NCBI RefSeq assembly: GCF_015265475.1
Contig: NZ_CP054493.1
Coordinates: 1,302,001-1,366,000 of the forward strand
Length of the DNA: 64,000 nt
Reading direction: 5' to 3'
Origin: Candidatus Sulfurimonas marisnigri
Lineage (GTDB): Bacteria > Campylobacterota > Campylobacteria > Campylobacterales > Sulfurimonadaceae
Below the pieces are notes generated by a model. The model searched no databases, was not told where the DNA came from, and worked only from the letters and a program-made list of their open reading frames with translations. Both the position numbers and the translations under genes were made by a program. Below, one piece after another: positions 6,094-14,845 of this stretch; within the stretch, counting starts at the first letter, position 1; each line of letters starts with the position of its first letter.

Positions 6094-6486
6094 ATGGATA
6101 CAGCTATTAATATAAAATTTAAAGTAACACCATCACAAAAAGAAACGATTGATTTAAGGATGTCAGAAAATGGATTTGATGAAATCTATGCATATTTAAA
6201 AGTAGTAGCACTAAAAACACAAACATTTAGTGTTACATCTGCAGGTTCATCAACAGAAGAAGCATCTGTTGAACTTGGATTTAAAGTGACAGAATCACAA
6301 AAAACTAAAATAGAAGAAAACATGAAAGAGAGTGGTTGCGTAGATCTTACTACTTATCTAGTATATGTTGCATTGCATGCAGTTGTAACAGCAGTGGTAG
6401 AAGTACGATCAACTGGAAGTTTAGATGAAATGCTAAAGCGTATTACTGATAGTCGTAACCCATCGAAGAGAAAAAGGTTGTTTTAA
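6094..6486 (+). CDS. Tandem ribbon-helix-helix-like protein (two repeats in one chain)
   Basis: A 130-residue protein built from two copies of the same unit: residues 5-40 and 59-94, offset by 54, with about 16 of 36 positions identical (F-K-V-T-x-S-Q-K, then I, M, E, G, Y-L and V-A-L in register). Each copy has a short beta-like strand followed by two helices, the layout of RHH DNA-binding proteins and of MobC-like plasmid mobilisation proteins (F-K-V-T-x-x-x-K start). Since RHH folds normally dimerise, one chain could be a built-in pseudo-dimer; this is inference. The basic tail RNPSKRKRLF could contact DNA. An AAAGGA site lies about 11 bases upstream. It precedes the large AAA+ gene by 183 bases on the same strand, so a regulator or adaptor role for that gene is plausible but unproven. 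Confidence 0.65.
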   Translation: MDTAINIKFKVTPSQKETIDLRMSENGFDEIYAYLKVVALKTQTFSVTSAGSSTEEASVELGFKVTESQKTKIEENMKESGCVDLTTYLVYVALHAVVTAVVEVRSTGSLDEMLKRITDSRNPSKRKRLF

Positions 6487-6669: not shown

Positions 6670-9294
6670 ATGACAAATACAGAAGCGTTAGTCAAAGCAG
6701 AAATTGAAAAATACGAGAAAGCCCATGAAAATGAGTTGGACAGTTTATCATTGAATGAGACTAAAAACAATATACAATTTTCTAAAAAATTCAAAGTAGA
6801 ACTCTCTAAAGATCTATTTGGACAAGAACAAGCAGTCAATATTGTAGCCAACAGTATGAAAAACAATGTCAAAGACGAAAAAGGACCTAAGAGTACCTAT
6901 CTTTTTTTAGGCTCTCCTGCTACTGGTAAGACCTTTCTTGCTGAGCTTATGGCTAAACATTTGCCCAAGTACAAAATCATGAAGTTTGATATGACACAGT
7001 ACCATCAGCAAAACGGTGGAGAGCTGTATGGGTATCCTACTGGTTGGAAAGGGTTTGGTGTTGGTCAATTGACAGGCTTTGTCCATAGAAATCCAAAAGC
7101 TGTCATTGTTCTGGATGCATTTGAGAAGTGTGACAATATCATTCAAAACAACCTTCTTTCCATCTTTGAAGGTGGCAGAATGCGTGATGCATGTGGTTGG
7201 GATAAGGTTACAGATGAGCCTTGTAATGAAGACCCAGACATCACATACAGTGATGAGAATGCTACCTACTGGGTAGATTTTACCGAGGTTATTTTTATCA
7301 TCACTACAAGTTTAGGTAAAGAGCTATATCTTGACTACAGGTTTAAAGATCTAGTAAAAAAAGACTATATCCAAGCCGAATCGATGATTCTCGAAGCTAT
7401 AAAACGGGAAAAGAAGAGAGATAGTAGAAGTGGTGGTCTTCAAGAAGCCATAGTACCGGAACTGGTCTCTCGATTTTCCAAAGCAAACATTGTCTTATTT
7501 AATAAGCTTGACTACGATGCTTTAGAAAAGATATCCAAGAAAGTATTCCTAACTTATATAGATGAGTTTAACAAACAGTATGAGATTGAATTTGACGTAG
7601 CTAATAATTTTGATAACTTTTTGAAAATTCAGATACTAAACTTTGCTCCAGAACTAGATGCAAGGCGTCTTAAGGATAAGGTAAGTACGATCTTCTTTAA
7701 CAGAATTACCTCATACATTCAGGACTCAGAAAAGCCTATTAATAGTTTCAAGCAGATAAAAGTATCTATTTCCAAAGATACTATGAGATTTTTAAATGAT
7801 AGAGTGAACCCACTTATAGAAGATGAGACGCTTGTTAGAGAACTTTTTAGAAAGAATATCACACTTGAACTCAATGACAAAATCACAGAGAAAAATGGCG
7901 TTATAACGTATAAAGTAAGCAGTTGTAAATTCTTGCAAGTTATCAGGATTAAAGATTTCAGTGAAGATGGACTTGTCTTTGATATACCAAAAGTCTCTTT
8001 TGATGATATCGCAGGTCACCATAAGGCAAAGCAAAGACTTAGAGAGGTCATTAACTTTTTTAAAGAGCCAAAGCAGTTAGAAAGCTTTAACATCGAACCA
8101 CCTAAAGGCATGCTTTTGTATGGACCTCCTGGTACTGGAAAGACGATGCTGGCAAAAGCCTTTGCTAAAGAAGCTGAGTTGCCTTTTATCTCAGTAACAG
8201 GACTTGAATTACTCCAGCCTGAAAAGACTCAGCAGATATTTTCTAAAGCTAAGGAGTACGCACCGGCTATTATCTTTATTGATGAAATCGATACCATTGG
8301 AAAGCGTGAGGGAGAAAATAGTAATACCGTACCTATTAATAAATTGTTATCGGAGATGGATGGGTTTTCGGGAAAAAAAGGTGAACATATCTTTGTCATT
8401 GCTGCAACTAACTATAAAGAAAATATAGACAGTGCTATCATCAGACCGGGAAGGGTAGAAATCCATATAGAGATTAATAACCTTGATAAAGATGCAAGAG
8501 AATATTTCTTAAACCAAATCATTGAGAAAAAACCCGCAAGTGGTGCATTTGATATGAATAAGCTGCTAATGTATACCGCTGGATTTACAGGTTCACAACT
8601 CGAACTTTTAGGTAAAGAAGCTTCGTTTTATTGTTTACGTCACGGTTTACCTGCAATTACACAAGATATTTTAATTGAGCAGATTAATATGATTAAATAC
8701 GGTGAGAGACAGTCCTATTTATCTCTTGAAGAGATGTTTGAAGAGACAGCGATCTATGAAGCGGGACGTACTGTAATCTCTAAAGTTTTAATGCCTCATA
8801 TTCATATTGAACATGTTAGTTTAACTCCAAAAGACAATAATGAACATTTTGTTTCACTCAATTATAATGATGTTCAAGAGAATATGACAGTCAAAGATTT
8901 TAAAGACAAAATATGCGTATCTTTAGCAGGAAGAACAGCCCAAATAAAAAAGTTTGGTGACATTGATGGTATGGATACAGGTGCTTCCAATGACTTGCAA
9001 CAAGCCACACGTGATGCGTATACGGCAATTGCACATTATGGAATGGATAAGGGAGTTGGATACATAAATATCAATGGTGTAATGGATGCAAAAGAAAACT
9101 CTATAAGTAGTAAAGATACAAAACACTATCATGAAAAAATTGAAACTGCACTTGAACGCTGGATGCTTGAAGGTGAAAAACATGTTACAGGTTTAGTCAA
9201 TGAATATTGGAGTACTATAGAGAGCTTATCAAAATTACTTCTTGAGAAAGAAATTATTTACGAAGATGAATTGGATGAAATTCTAGCTAGATAA
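6670..9294 (+). CDS. Double AAA+ protein: ClpB-D2-like module fused to an FtsH-like module with inactivated M41 peptidase domain
   Basis: An 874-residue soluble protein. Module 1 (about residues 45-345) resembles the second AAA+ module of ClpA/ClpB: Walker A GSPATGKT (81-88), Walker B VIVLDA (145-150) where the expected catalytic Glu is Ala150, sensor-1 region ITTSLG with Ser214 where ClpB has Asn, arginine-finger candidate R268 and a sensor-2-like DARRLK (330-335). Module 2 (about 443-680) is FtsH-like: Walker A GPPGTGKT (485-492), Walker B IIFIDEID (534-541, E539 kept), AATN (578-581) and RPGR (592-595). The stretch carrying the FtsH pore loop (F-V-G) is about six residues shorter and lacks that motif. 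The tail (about 685-874) aligns with the FtsH M41 peptidase, but HEAGH is YEAGR (696-700), so both zinc histidines are gone; Glu697 and the third ligand Asp775 (GASND) remain. No transmembrane segment is visible, unlike FtsH. Likely a remodelling or regulatory ATPase rather than a protease. AAGAG site 8 bases before the ATG. Substrate unknown. Confidence 0.85.
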   Translation: MTNTEALVKAEIEKYEKAHENELDSLSLNETKNNIQFSKKFKVELSKDLFGQEQAVNIVANSMKNNVKDEKGPKSTYLFLGSPATGKTFLAELMAKHLPKYKIMKFDMTQYHQQNGGELYGYPTGWKGFGVGQLTGFVHRNPKAVIVLDAFEKCDNIIQNNLLSIFEGGRMRDACGWDKVTDEPCNEDPDITYSDENATYWVDFTEVIFIITTSLGKELYLDYRFKDLVKKDYIQAESMILEAIKREKKRDSRSGGLQEAIVPELVSRFSKANIVLFNKLDYDALEKISKKVFLTYIDEFNKQYEIEFDVANNFDNFLKIQILNFAPELDARRLKDKVSTIFFNRITSYIQDSEKPINSFKQIKVSISKDTMRFLNDRVNPLIEDETLVRELFRKNITLELNDKITEKNGVITYKVSSCKFLQVIRIKDFSEDGLVFDIPKVSFDDIAGHHKAKQRLREVINFFKEPKQLESFNIEPPKGMLLYGPPGTGKTMLAKAFAKEAELPFISVTGLELLQPEKTQQIFSKAKEYAPAIIFIDEIDTIGKREGENSNTVPINKLLSEMDGFSGKKGEHIFVIAATNYKENIDSAIIRPGRVEIHIEINNLDKDAREYFLNQIIEKKPASGAFDMNKLLMYTAGFTGSQLELLGKEASFYCLRHGLPAITQDILIEQINMIKYGERQSYLSLEEMFEETAIYEAGRTVISKVLMPHIHIEHVSLTPKDNNEHFVSLNYNDVQENMTVKDFKDKICVSLAGRTAQIKKFGDIDGMDTGASNDLQQATRDAYTAIAHYGMDKGVGYININGVMDAKENSISSKDTKHYHEKIETALERWMLEGEKHVTGLVNEYWSTIESLSKLLLEKEIIYEDELDEILAR

Positions 9295-9375
9295 TGCTAA
9301 ACAGGGTTGCTGATAGTAGAACAATATCTTATTCATTTCTATTCAAGTAAACAAATAAACAAAGGAACAAAGATT

Positions 9376-9795
9376 ATGATGACACAAGAACAACTACCTA
9401 TGGTCGCAATACCAAGTATGAATAATACTCATCTAGAAGAGATGTTAATTATAAATAAACTCGAAACTGCTGCAAGGGATAATGACACAGGTACAGTGTC
9501 TAAAATATTAGAAGAGTTGCTGAAACATACAGTCATGCATTTTGTCGATGAAGAAGATATGATGGAAAAAGGACTGTTTCCTGATTTCAATACGCATAAA
9601 AGTGAGCATGACAGACACTTGCACGAACTCAAATCTTTATTAAAATATTTTGAAAAAAATAAAGACACAAAAGCCATACTTGTTTATATTGAAGGTGCTT
9701 TAACACCATGGCTAATTCACCATATGGAAACTATGGATACTGTAATGGCTACGTATATACAAGCAGAATCTTCTACTAAGGGAAGTACAACATGA
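9376..9795 (+). CDS. Hemerythrin-like di-iron oxygen-binding protein
   Basis: A 139-residue four-helix-bundle hemerythrin that binds O2 (or NO) at a non-haem di-iron centre. The ligand pattern is complete and in order: H in NNTHLEEM, HxxxE in HFVDEED, HxxxH in HKSEHD, and HxxxxD in HHMETMD. The frame is open to a TTG at 9307, but an AAAGGAACAAAG site sits just before the ATG at 9376 and gives a normal hemerythrin N-terminus. It starts about 80 bases after the AAA+ gene on the same strand and may be co-transcribed with it. A hairpin with a T-run follows. A second hemerythrin lies at 12880-13281. Confidence 0.9.
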   Translation: MMTQEQLPMVAIPSMNNTHLEEMLIINKLETAARDNDTGTVSKILEELLKHTVMHFVDEEDMMEKGLFPDFNTHKSEHDRHLHELKSLLKYFEKNKDTKAILVYIEGALTPWLIHHMETMDTVMATYIQAESSTKGSTT

Positions 9796-9869: not shown

Positions 9870-11309
9870 TCATGACGAGCAGGAAAGTCCAAGGTTTTTG
9901 TACTCTTCGGGTGTATCTCCTGCGAAATGCTCAAATTCTGGTAGTTCATCATACGGATGTGCTGCAATATATAACAGCGTTTCCACCATTGAATAGTCAC
10001 CACCCTCAGCCTGTGTTATAGCTTTTTGAAGCATATAGTTTTTCAAAATGTACTTTGGATTACTATTTAGCATCTCTTTTTGACGTTGGGATTGAGTACG
10101 TGTTTCCTGTGATAGACGATCATCATATAGCTTAAGCCATTTGTCCAGTATCACAGGCTCCATAACAATATCATACAGTGGTGTTTTATCACCGTTATAG
10201 CGACTAAGTGTTCGGAAGAAAAGAGTGTGATCAACGAAGACGTTATGCAGTGTTTCCACAAGTTCTTCAATCAGTAAGGCGTCATCATCTAGCTTCATAG
10301 AGAGTCCAAGTTTGTCACGCATGATATCAACATATGCATTTGGATAAATAAAGGCACCGAAGTCATCGAGTTTTTGCTGCATCCTCTCTTTTGAAATGAT
10401 TGGAGAAAGTGCTTTTGAAAGCATAGTAAGATTCCAGTAGGAAATATTAGGCTGTTCTCCGTAACTATAGCGTCCGGCACGGTCAGTATGATTGCAAATA
10501 TAACCATACCTGAAATCATCAAGCATAGCAAAAGGGCCATAGTCAATAGTAAGACCTTCTATTGACATATTATCGGTGTTCATGACGCCGTGATTAAACC
10601 CTATCGCTTGCCATTGTGCAATCAATTTTGCAGTACGCTCAACAACTTCGCAAAACATTTTGAAAAAGCGGTCGTCATCATCTTTGAAGTGTGGGTACGA
10701 TTCAACAATGACGTACTCAGTAAGCATCTCAAGCTTACTATACTCACGCCTATAGTAAAAGTACTCAAAGGTACCAAAACGCACCCAGCTAGTCGACATA
10801 CGCATGACGATAGCCGCTTGCTCTATGCTATTACGAATGACTTTAGTCTTTGATCCGATGATACCAAGAGCTCTGGTCGAAGGAATGCCCAGATGGTGCA
10901 TCCCTTCGCTCATCAGATACTCACGTATAGATGAGCGTACAACTGCCCTTCCGTCTGCCATACGAGAATAGAGTGTTTCACCGCTACCTTTGAGCTGTAA
11001 GTTCCAGCCATTAACGCTTCCCAAGTTGATAGTTCTTCCATCTCCTAGCCATGGGTTATAATTACCAAACTGATGTCCAGCATAGCACATGGCAAAAGGA
11101 CGTGAACCTTTAGGTATAAAAGTACCATTGAGAAGTGCAACAAAATCAGGATCATTACAACTATTGCTATCAAGATCGATCAGTTTTGCAGCCTCAGGAT
11201 TAAAGCTGATTAGATAAGGTTCATCAAGCGGCGTAGGGTCGGTTAAATCATAAAATTCGCTATCCAATGAAAGGTAGGTAGTTTGAAGTATCATATTATC
11301 AAGTATCAT
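9870..11309 (-). CDS. selO: SelO (YdiU) family protein adenylyltransferase
   Basis: A pseudokinase that transfers AMP from ATP to Ser/Thr/Tyr of target proteins; in E. coli it is tied to redox homeostasis. The 479 residues match the family length. Visible motifs: GHQFGNYNPWLGDGRTINLG (78-97), the ATP-binding lysine in NLQLKGSGETLYSR (Lys107), SSIREYLMSE with Glu130, the catalytic NTDN (244-247) and the metal-binding DYGPFAML (Asp257). It ends in SCSS, the conserved C-terminal tail where eukaryotic SelO has selenocysteine. The gene looks more GC-rich than its neighbours by eye, which may mean transfer. M1 (11309) and M6 (11294) are both possible starts; neither has a clear ribosome-binding site. 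It stands alone between a convergent hemerythrin gene and an unknown acidic protein. Confidence 0.95.
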   Translation of the reverse strand: MILDNMILQTTYLSLDSEFYDLTDPTPLDEPYLISFNPEAAKLIDLDSNSCNDPDFVALLNGTFIPKGSRPFAMCYAGHQFGNYNPWLGDGRTINLGSVNGWNLQLKGSGETLYSRMADGRAVVRSSIREYLMSEGMHHLGIPSTRALGIIGSKTKVIRNSIEQAAIVMRMSTSWVRFGTFEYFYYRREYSKLEMLTEYVIVESYPHFKDDDDRFFKMFCEVVERTAKLIAQWQAIGFNHGVMNTDNMSIEGLTIDYGPFAMLDDFRYGYICNHTDRAGRYSYGEQPNISYWNLTMLSKALSPIISKERMQQKLDDFGAFIYPNAYVDIMRDKLGLSMKLDDDALLIEELVETLHNVFVDHTLFFRTLSRYNGDKTPLYDIVMEPVILDKWLKLYDDRLSQETRTQSQRQKEMLNSNPKYILKNYMLQKAITQAEGGDYSMVETLLYIAAHPYDELPEFEHFAGDTPEEYKNLGLSCSS

Positions 11310-12879: not shown

Positions 12880-13281
12880 CTAATTTGAGTTAGCAAGGTG
12901 CAAAGCAGTTTCAGTATCCCATTTTGAAATATGTAAAATCAACCACTTCTTAAAATCTTTCTCTAAAAAACCCTGTAGCTCTGTTGGACCTTTAAGTATT
13001 TCCCATCGTTTATGGAATTTTTTTAATTTTTCTCTCATAGTATCATGGTCACTTTTATGCACTTGAAAATGACTATAGTTATTTTGCTCCATCATATCTT
13101 CTTCCGTTTTAAAGTGATCTTCGATATCAAACATAACTACTTTGAAAAGTTCATCTATTTTATCTATATCTTTGGCTACAACAGCATCATAAAAATCATT
13201 TATAACTTGTATCTCTTCTTCATGTAACATATTAATTACTTCATTCGCTACTTGTTGTATATCTTGTTCTTGTATTAGCAT
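12880..13281 (-). CDS. Second hemerythrin-like protein
   Basis: A 133-residue hemerythrin with a complete ligand set: H in NMLHEEEIQV, HFKTEED (HxxxE), HKSDHD (HxxxH) and HISKWD (HxxxxD). It is divergent from, not a recent copy of, the hemerythrin at 9376: the two share the ligand framework but little else. It lies between the aldo/keto reductase and truncated hemoglobin genes, all leftward, with AT-rich gaps of about 60 and 200 bases. It may buffer O2 for a microaerophile or sense O2 or NO. A GGAG site lies just ahead of the ATG. Confidence 0.9.
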   Translation of the reverse strand: MLIQEQDIQQVANEVINMLHEEEIQVINDFYDAVVAKDIDKIDELFKVVMFDIEDHFKTEEDMMEQNNYSHFQVHKSDHDTMREKLKKFHKRWEILKGPTELQGFLEKDFKKWLILHISKWDTETALHLANSN

Positions 13282-14299: not shown

Positions 14300-14845
14300 T
14301 TAGTCGTAAAAACTACGAAGAGCTCTAATTATAACAGCATTTTTAGAAATACTTTCAGCTTTTGCATTTTCATTAACTATTTCATAAAGGTCTAAAGGAA
14401 GAGAAATAGAAAATGTTTTAGTCTCTATTTTTTTCTTTTTATTAATCATAGACATAACACTCGTAAGTAATTCAATAATTTTTTTAGTATCTATTGGTTT
14501 TTGAATAAAACTATTTACTCCAACTTCAATAGACTCAGATATTTTTTCAATATCATTACTTGCAGAAATTACAATAATTATTTGAGTAGGGTTGATTTCA
14601 CGAATCTTACGAGAAAGTTCAATTCCGTCCATTCCTGACATAATGATATCAACAAAAACAACATCTGGAGCTGACTTCATATAAGCATTAAGTGCATCTT
14701 CACTATTGAAGTATGACCCTACAGTTGAAAAAAAGTTTTTGAAAGTTGAACTTAAAAGTTCATTTACTACTTTTTCGTCTTCAACAACCATAGCTGTTAA
14801 TTTTTTTGTTTCTTGTGTCAATTGAACCAAATCTACATTTGACAT
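14300..14845 (-). CDS. Response regulator with ribbon-helix-helix output domain
   Basis: A 181-residue two-domain regulator. The receiver domain (about 15-130) has the acidic pocket E22/D23, phospho-acceptor Asp66 in VVFVDIIMSGMDG, switch residue Ser94 in VISAS, and Lys116 in QKP. A lysine-rich linker (136-140) leads to a C-terminal stretch (143-181) with a strand KTFSISLP followed by two helices (LDLYEIVNENAKAE, then SKNAVIIRALRSFY), the pattern of a CopG/Arc-type RHH domain. This replaces the usual winged-helix or HTH output. No sensor kinase is adjacent, so it is an orphan. AAGGA lies 7 bases before the ATG. Confidence 0.85.
   Translation of the reverse strand: MSNVDLVQLTQETKKLTAMVVEDEKVVNELLSSTFKNFFSTVGSYFNSEDALNAYMKSAPDVVFVDIIMSGMDGIELSRKIREINPTQIIIVISASNDIEKISESIEVGVNSFIQKPIDTKKIIELLTSVMSMINKKKKIETKTFSISLPLDLYEIVNENAKAESISKNAVIIRALRSFYD

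Follow-up and report, generated by a model that had tools for sequence, protein, structure and literature searches.

A soluble AAA+ protein joining ClpB-D2-like and FtsH-like modules to a zinc-site-deficient M41 domain in Campylobacterota

Energy-dependent proteases are thought to require a motor and a peptidase together. What work, then, could be done by an 874-aa protein in which two AAA+ modules precede an M41 peptidase domain that has lost its zinc site? The gene lies in a window of 64,000 nt (the whole stretch of DNA analysed), and its architecture, motif states, conservation, tree and gene neighborhood were obtained with computational tools (features in Table 1). We favor, at a probability of roughly 60%, a remodelling machine of the AAA+ class that is soluble, probably hexameric and free of proteolytic activity, with its three parts stacked on one another.

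Table 1. Features of the locus; positions are those in the 64,000-nt window, and residues those of the 874-aa protein of ORF 6670-9294
Feature	Position	Strand	Basis
Tandem ribbon-helix-helix (NikA-like) gene, 130 aa, conserved upstream neighbor	6094..6486	+	Flank comparison
Double-AAA+/M41 pseudo-protease gene, 874 aa, type I	6670..9294	+	ORF, Pfam, scan, motif table
Module 1, residues 34-410, HSP100 D2/ClpB NBD2-like AAA+	6769..7899	+	Pfam AAA_2, phmmer, VIA
Walker A1 GSPATGKT, residues 81-88	6910..6933	+	Motif scan; G-[SP]-PATGKT throughout type I
Module 1 pore loop G125-W-K-G-F129, equivalent to ClpB D2 GYVGY	7042..7056	+	Alignment; GWKG[FY] throughout type I
Walker B1 VIVLDA, residues 145-150, Glu replaced by Ala150 (A or S throughout type I)	7102..7119	+	Motif scan, alignment
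Insert with CGWDKxTDxxC; Cys175 and Cys185 invariant in type I	7189..7266	+	Alignment, conservation
Module 1 sensor-1 region, Asn lost (TSN to TTS)	7300..7317	+	Motif table, alignment
Module 1 arginine finger R268, retained	7471..7473	+	Motif table, alignment
Module 1 sensor-2 DARRLK (Arg332), retained	7657..7674	+	Motif table, alignment
Module 2, residues 433-680, FtsH/AAA-type motor domain	7966..8709	+	Pfam AAA, VIA
Walker A2 GPPGTGKT, residues 485-492, invariant in type I	8122..8145	+	Motif scan, conservation
Six-residue pore-loop-1 deletion site (no FVG)	8197..8241	+	All 51 family members, neither own-genome FtsH paralogue
Walker B2 IIFIDEID, residues 534-541, intact	8269..8292	+	Motif table
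RPGR arginine fingers, residues 592-595, intact	8443..8454	+	Motif table
M41 pseudo-peptidase domain, residues 686-874	8725..9291	+	Pfam Peptidase_M41
YEAGR (696-700) at HEXXH position, zinc site lost	8755..8769	+	Motif scan and table
Asp775, third-zinc-ligand position, retained	8992..8994	+	Invariant column, motif table
Bacteriohemerythrin gene directly downstream, likelier start near 9376	9307..9795	+	PF01814, conserved neighbor
Second hemerythrin of the neighborhood	12880..13281	-	Profile match, conserved neighbor

Pfam places three domains on the protein, all above cut-off: AAA_2 at residues 73-270 (E 1.3e-22), AAA (PF00004) at 481-603 (7e-43, 146.7 bits) and Peptidase_M41 (PF01434) at 691-871 (1.2e-22, 81.1 bits). 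Searched alone by phmmer, module 1 matches ClpB (6e-19), ClpC and CLPB D2. The AlphaFold model has a mean pLDDT of 78.6 and a pTM of 0.59, a value at which the position of one module against another is insecure. By VIA fold matching, residues 34-410 of the model resemble the ClpB C-terminal ATPase domain/NBD2 (4fd2; Z 22.9, rmsd 3.4, 297 aligned) and residues 433-874 soluble FtsH (6gcn_B; Z 22.4, 415 aligned), with a second FtsH match to 7zbh_B (rmsd 3.4 over 367); module 2 alone matches the Thermus thermophilus FtsH ATPase (1iy2; Z 22.7, rmsd 2.3). No membrane helix was found by hydropathy, the maximum over 19 residues being 1.05 as against 2.65 in FtsH of the same genome, whereas both other M41 proteins of the genome have one. 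The protein is a ClpB-D2-like module joined to a membrane-free FtsH-like part. The original prediction, made from the DNA alone, had proposed this combination and the lack of a membrane segment, and Pfam, phmmer, fold matches and hydropathy agree with it; the positions that it gave for the four Walker motifs, Ala150, RPGR, YEAGR and Asp775 are all confirmed by motif scan.

We compared module 1 with the D2 domains of ClpB and ClpA from the same genome, both of which have Glu where module 1 has Ala150. Walker A, the Walker B Asp, R268, Arg332 and the aromatic pore loop are retained, and the Walker B Glu and sensor-1 Asn are gone. Most AAA+ modules, though not every one, cease to hydrolyse ATP once the Walker B Glu is gone, and the pattern as a whole would suit a site that binds ATP without hydrolysing it. 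Four cysteines are invariant in type I, the group containing this protein (Cys154, Cys175, Cys185 and Cys655), two of them within the CGWDKxTDxxC insert. This insert, absent from nearly all other family members, is a possible redox or metal site.

Module 2 of type I is complete apart from its pore loop. The stretch between TG(511) and IF(524) is, as predicted, shorter than in FtsH, by exactly six residues when aligned with that of the same genome (L109), and lacks FVG; the deletion is shared by 51 of 51 aligned relatives and by neither FtsH outgroup. In FtsH, the phenylalanine of FVG binds substrate (PMC9020784). Since the motif is absent family-wide, any threading must rely on module 1, and types III to VI lack the aromatic loop of module 1 as well. 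The missing pore loop described in the original prediction applies to module 2 only; module 1 has the aromatic loop GWKGF. At the HEXXH position the protein has YEAGR, where FtsH of the same genome has HESGH. That genome encodes three M41 proteins, a normal FtsH and two with dead sites, the other dead-site paralogue (L108, G000:C1:1213371 region) being a membrane-anchored protein of 552 aa with YQAAK.

A scan of a collection of 84,980 species with the 874-aa protein returned 18 close loci (72-86% identity, close relatives only) in Sulfurimonas, Sulfuricurvum, Sulfurovum and one MAG labelled Arcobacter. The wider family occurs in 39 of 397 Campylobacterota genomes searched, with exactly one member per genome; the searches were centered on this phylum, and restriction to it is not proven. 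Counting HEAAH as satisfying HEXXH, we recognize six types. Type I (2/39), which includes the window protein, has lost the Walker B1 Glu and carries an intact motor 2 and YEAGR. Every motif is intact in type II (5/39; HEAGH). In type III (5/39; HEAGH), module 1 has a degraded Walker B and Arg finger, and module 2 keeps its Walker motifs and has lost the first Arg finger. Both motors are degraded in type IV (12/39; HEAGH), the Walker B2 Glu is lost in type V (8/39; HEAAH), and type VI (7/39; HEAAH or HEAGH) consists of 448-aa proteins from which module 1 is absent. Six soluble AAA+/M41 proteins of about 448 aa (L093, L095, L100, L101, L106 and L107), with no module 1, a degraded Walker B2 and an intact zinc site, are possible motor-less M41 peptidases. 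In G146, a frameshift or sequencing error breaks the type IV gene (L105) into separate frames of 664 and 161 aa. Four intact type II genes (L043, L045, L046 and L047) adjoin DUF4062/NACHT-like STAND NTPases, a TIR protein (L046:3562-5112) and TrkA-N proteins, a setting that resembles an immune- or signalling-like island.

In a tree built on module 2 and M41 with the motif columns removed, the family is split from FtsH with full support (branch approximately 1.1). Type I forms a fully supported clade that joins part of type II at 94/88, and types III-VI make up a second clade, also with full support. Parsimony requires one change for the zinc site and two each for Walker B1 and Walker B2; the zinc site was lost once, at the base of the type I clade. 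Because the intact type II members are basal, the ancestor of the family was probably a complete soluble double-AAA+ protease, with the root set by a distant outgroup and a weak deepest branch. Degeneration has been reciprocal, type I keeping the motor and losing the protease, and the III-VI clade keeping the zinc site and degrading module 1 and mostly module 2.

Type I is under strong purifying selection on every module, the dead M41 included: the folded modules show a dN of 0.06-0.16 with dS near saturation, giving a dN/dS of approximately 0.05-0.1 over the gene, and 448 of the 874 residues are invariant across 15 type I members. The M41 domain (73-83% identity to the window protein) is looser than module 2 (82-90%), yet clearly constrained. 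The original prediction had asked whether Ala150, the altered HEXXH and the pore-loop gap are conserved, and had regarded homologues with the zinc His pair or the pore loop as a sign of a local degenerate variant. The gap is indeed universal, with the pore loop in none, whereas Ala150 (A or S) and the zinc-site loss characterize type I, the zinc site being intact in all 36 relatives outside this clade. Across a clade of several genera evolving under purifying selection the dead site has become fixed, so the protein is not a local degenerate copy. A local pseudogene was likewise rejected by dN/dS and conservation across genera, only L014 being split in two frames. We also rejected a defence system for type I (PADLOC matches, IetA among them, reflect generic AAA similarity only), a plasmid origin (plasmids give FtsH-like parts only and no double-module match) and a phage origin (viral contigs give short AAA matches only).

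Beyond the original prediction, the analysis revealed the module 1 pore loop, the sensor-1 Asn loss, the wider Campylobacterota family and a link to genes for hemerythrin, an oxygen-binding protein. The genome has only six hemerythrin genes, two of which lie within 3.6 kb of the AAA+/M41 gene. Based on an iterated HMM over the flanks and gene order, a hemerythrin is near 14 of the 15 type I loci with usable flanks (those of L010, L011 and L013 are cut by contig ends and fall outside this count), on the same strand and at most 50 bases downstream by ORF call in 10 of the 14; none was found at L009/L042, which represent one organism. The same flank search found none near 19 loci of types II-IV, the types to which this comparison extends. 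In eight type I organisms the ribbon-helix-helix gene, probably encoding a regulator, precedes the AAA+/M41 gene in the same orientation; in a ninth it is found elsewhere in the vicinity. Genes for a SelO pseudokinase-AMPylase (window 9870-11309), a receiver-domain-like protein (window 14300-14845) and a globin-like protein (identified by eye only) also recur near type I genes. For hemerythrins in Sulfurimonas, roles in the storage, sensing or detoxification of oxygen have been discussed (PMC10066037). The co-occurrence of the gene with bacteriohemerythrin makes an oxygen- or redox-related client or trigger probable for the type I protein, which itself probably serves oxygen or redox physiology. 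The association may instead reflect a shared accessory island rather than a shared function.

For the type I protein we infer a hexamer with an ATP-locked module 1 and no protease activity, engaged in remodelling and linked to oxygen. Module 1 would bind ATP without being able to hydrolyse it efficiently, so that its ring, always charged with nucleotide, would keep the hexamer assembled and hold the client via GWKGF. Module 2, which has no threading pore loop itself, would hydrolyse ATP and perform the conformational work, and M41 would be a dead peptidase retained as a structural platform or client dock, comparable to chloroplast FtsHi. The original prediction had likewise cast module 1 as a nucleotide-bound scaffold, module 2 as the motor and the whole as probably not a protease. 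Zinc-site loss throughout type I supports the last point, and the scaffold reading of module 1 is strengthened by the loss of the sensor-1 Asn and Walker B Glu while Walker A, the Arg finger and sensor 2 are retained.

Module 2 without pore loop 1 may, however, pull nothing. A nucleotide-switched scaffold with no motor, in which ATP turnover by module 2 toggles assembly of a complex (e.g., with hemerythrin or the ribbon-helix-helix regulator) without threading, would accord with the pore-loop deletion in all members and with the persistence of several sister groups with both motors degraded, which implies that the fold is useful beyond threading. We consider it rather unlikely, as a pure scaffold would not need the aromatic pore loop that is invariant in module 1 of type I. 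Mixed hexamers with true FtsH or the YQAAK paralogue, modulating them as FtsHi does with FtsH12, are conceivable in a genome with two dead-site M41 proteins among three, but are made improbable by the deep split of the family from both, the lack of a membrane anchor and the lack of a shared pore loop. It is still harder to credit a residual or altered hydrolase working through another metal site: Asp775 is invariant, as are His819 and His821 of the M41 domain and the Cys residues specifically in type I, but the first zinc His is replaced in every type I member and the second in all except one organism (YEAGH), and Glu697 has become Gln in two.

Returning to the remodelling machine, its family amounts to a natural experiment, with one branch having a motor without a peptidase, another a peptidase without motor parts (some without the whole of module 1), and basal members retaining everything. 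Comparing types I, II and IV as enzymes would reveal the role of each part alone, show whether an FtsH-type ring works once its threading loop is gone, and offer a clue to why an AAA+ machine is accompanied by hemerythrin genes in sulfur-oxidizing Campylobacterota. We advance only tentatively the full proposal of reciprocal motor and protease loss in a new soluble AAA+/M41 family whose type I members are hemerythrin-coupled, oxygen-responsive protein remodellers.

Among known systems, the protein shares module 2, the M41 fold, RPGR fingers and the third-ligand Asp with FtsH and other M41 AAA+ proteases (Yme1, AFG3L2), and differs in lacking a membrane anchor and zinc site and in having an N-terminal ClpB-D2 module and the six-residue pore-loop deletion. 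It scores 298.1 bits against the FtsH equivalog TIGR01241 (cut-off 600) and 91.7 bits against the ClpB equivalog (cut-off 1232), the latter over the D2-like part only. Our literature searches found no published description of a ClpB-D2/FtsH fusion and nothing useful on HP0286; with no NCBIfam equivalog reached either, no named family fits, and the original prediction likewise knew of none. Chloroplast FtsHi and the Ycf2-FtsHi motor, conserved pseudo-proteases of FtsH type by which proteins are still moved, resemble it in having an FtsH-like motor, a destroyed HEXXH in an otherwise recognizable M41 domain and non-proteolytic work (presumed for the 874-aa protein), and Ycf2-FtsHi chains are among its fold matches; they are, in contrast, chloroplast envelope-membrane proteins of a protein-import complex and have no ClpB-like module (PMC8197885; PMC9020784).

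Module 1 resembles the second ATPase domain of HSP100 proteins (ClpB, ClpC and ClpA) in sequence, fold, aromatic pore loop, Arg finger and sensor 2, whereas the 874-aa protein lacks D1 and the middle domain, has an FtsH-like part fused and retains neither the Walker B Glu nor the sensor-1 Asn. The proposed pairing of a structural ring with a motor ring recalls double-ring AAA+ proteins with a static ring (NSF, p97 and Rix7/NVL). In NSF, one ring is structural and the other is the motor. Both modules align with p97 and Rix7 in the fold search, although module 1 is of HSP100 type rather than classic AAA, and an M41 domain is present. The protein fits instead an unnamed Campylobacterota ClpB-D2/FtsH family marked by the pore-loop deletion, the lack of a membrane anchor and a clade apart from FtsH.
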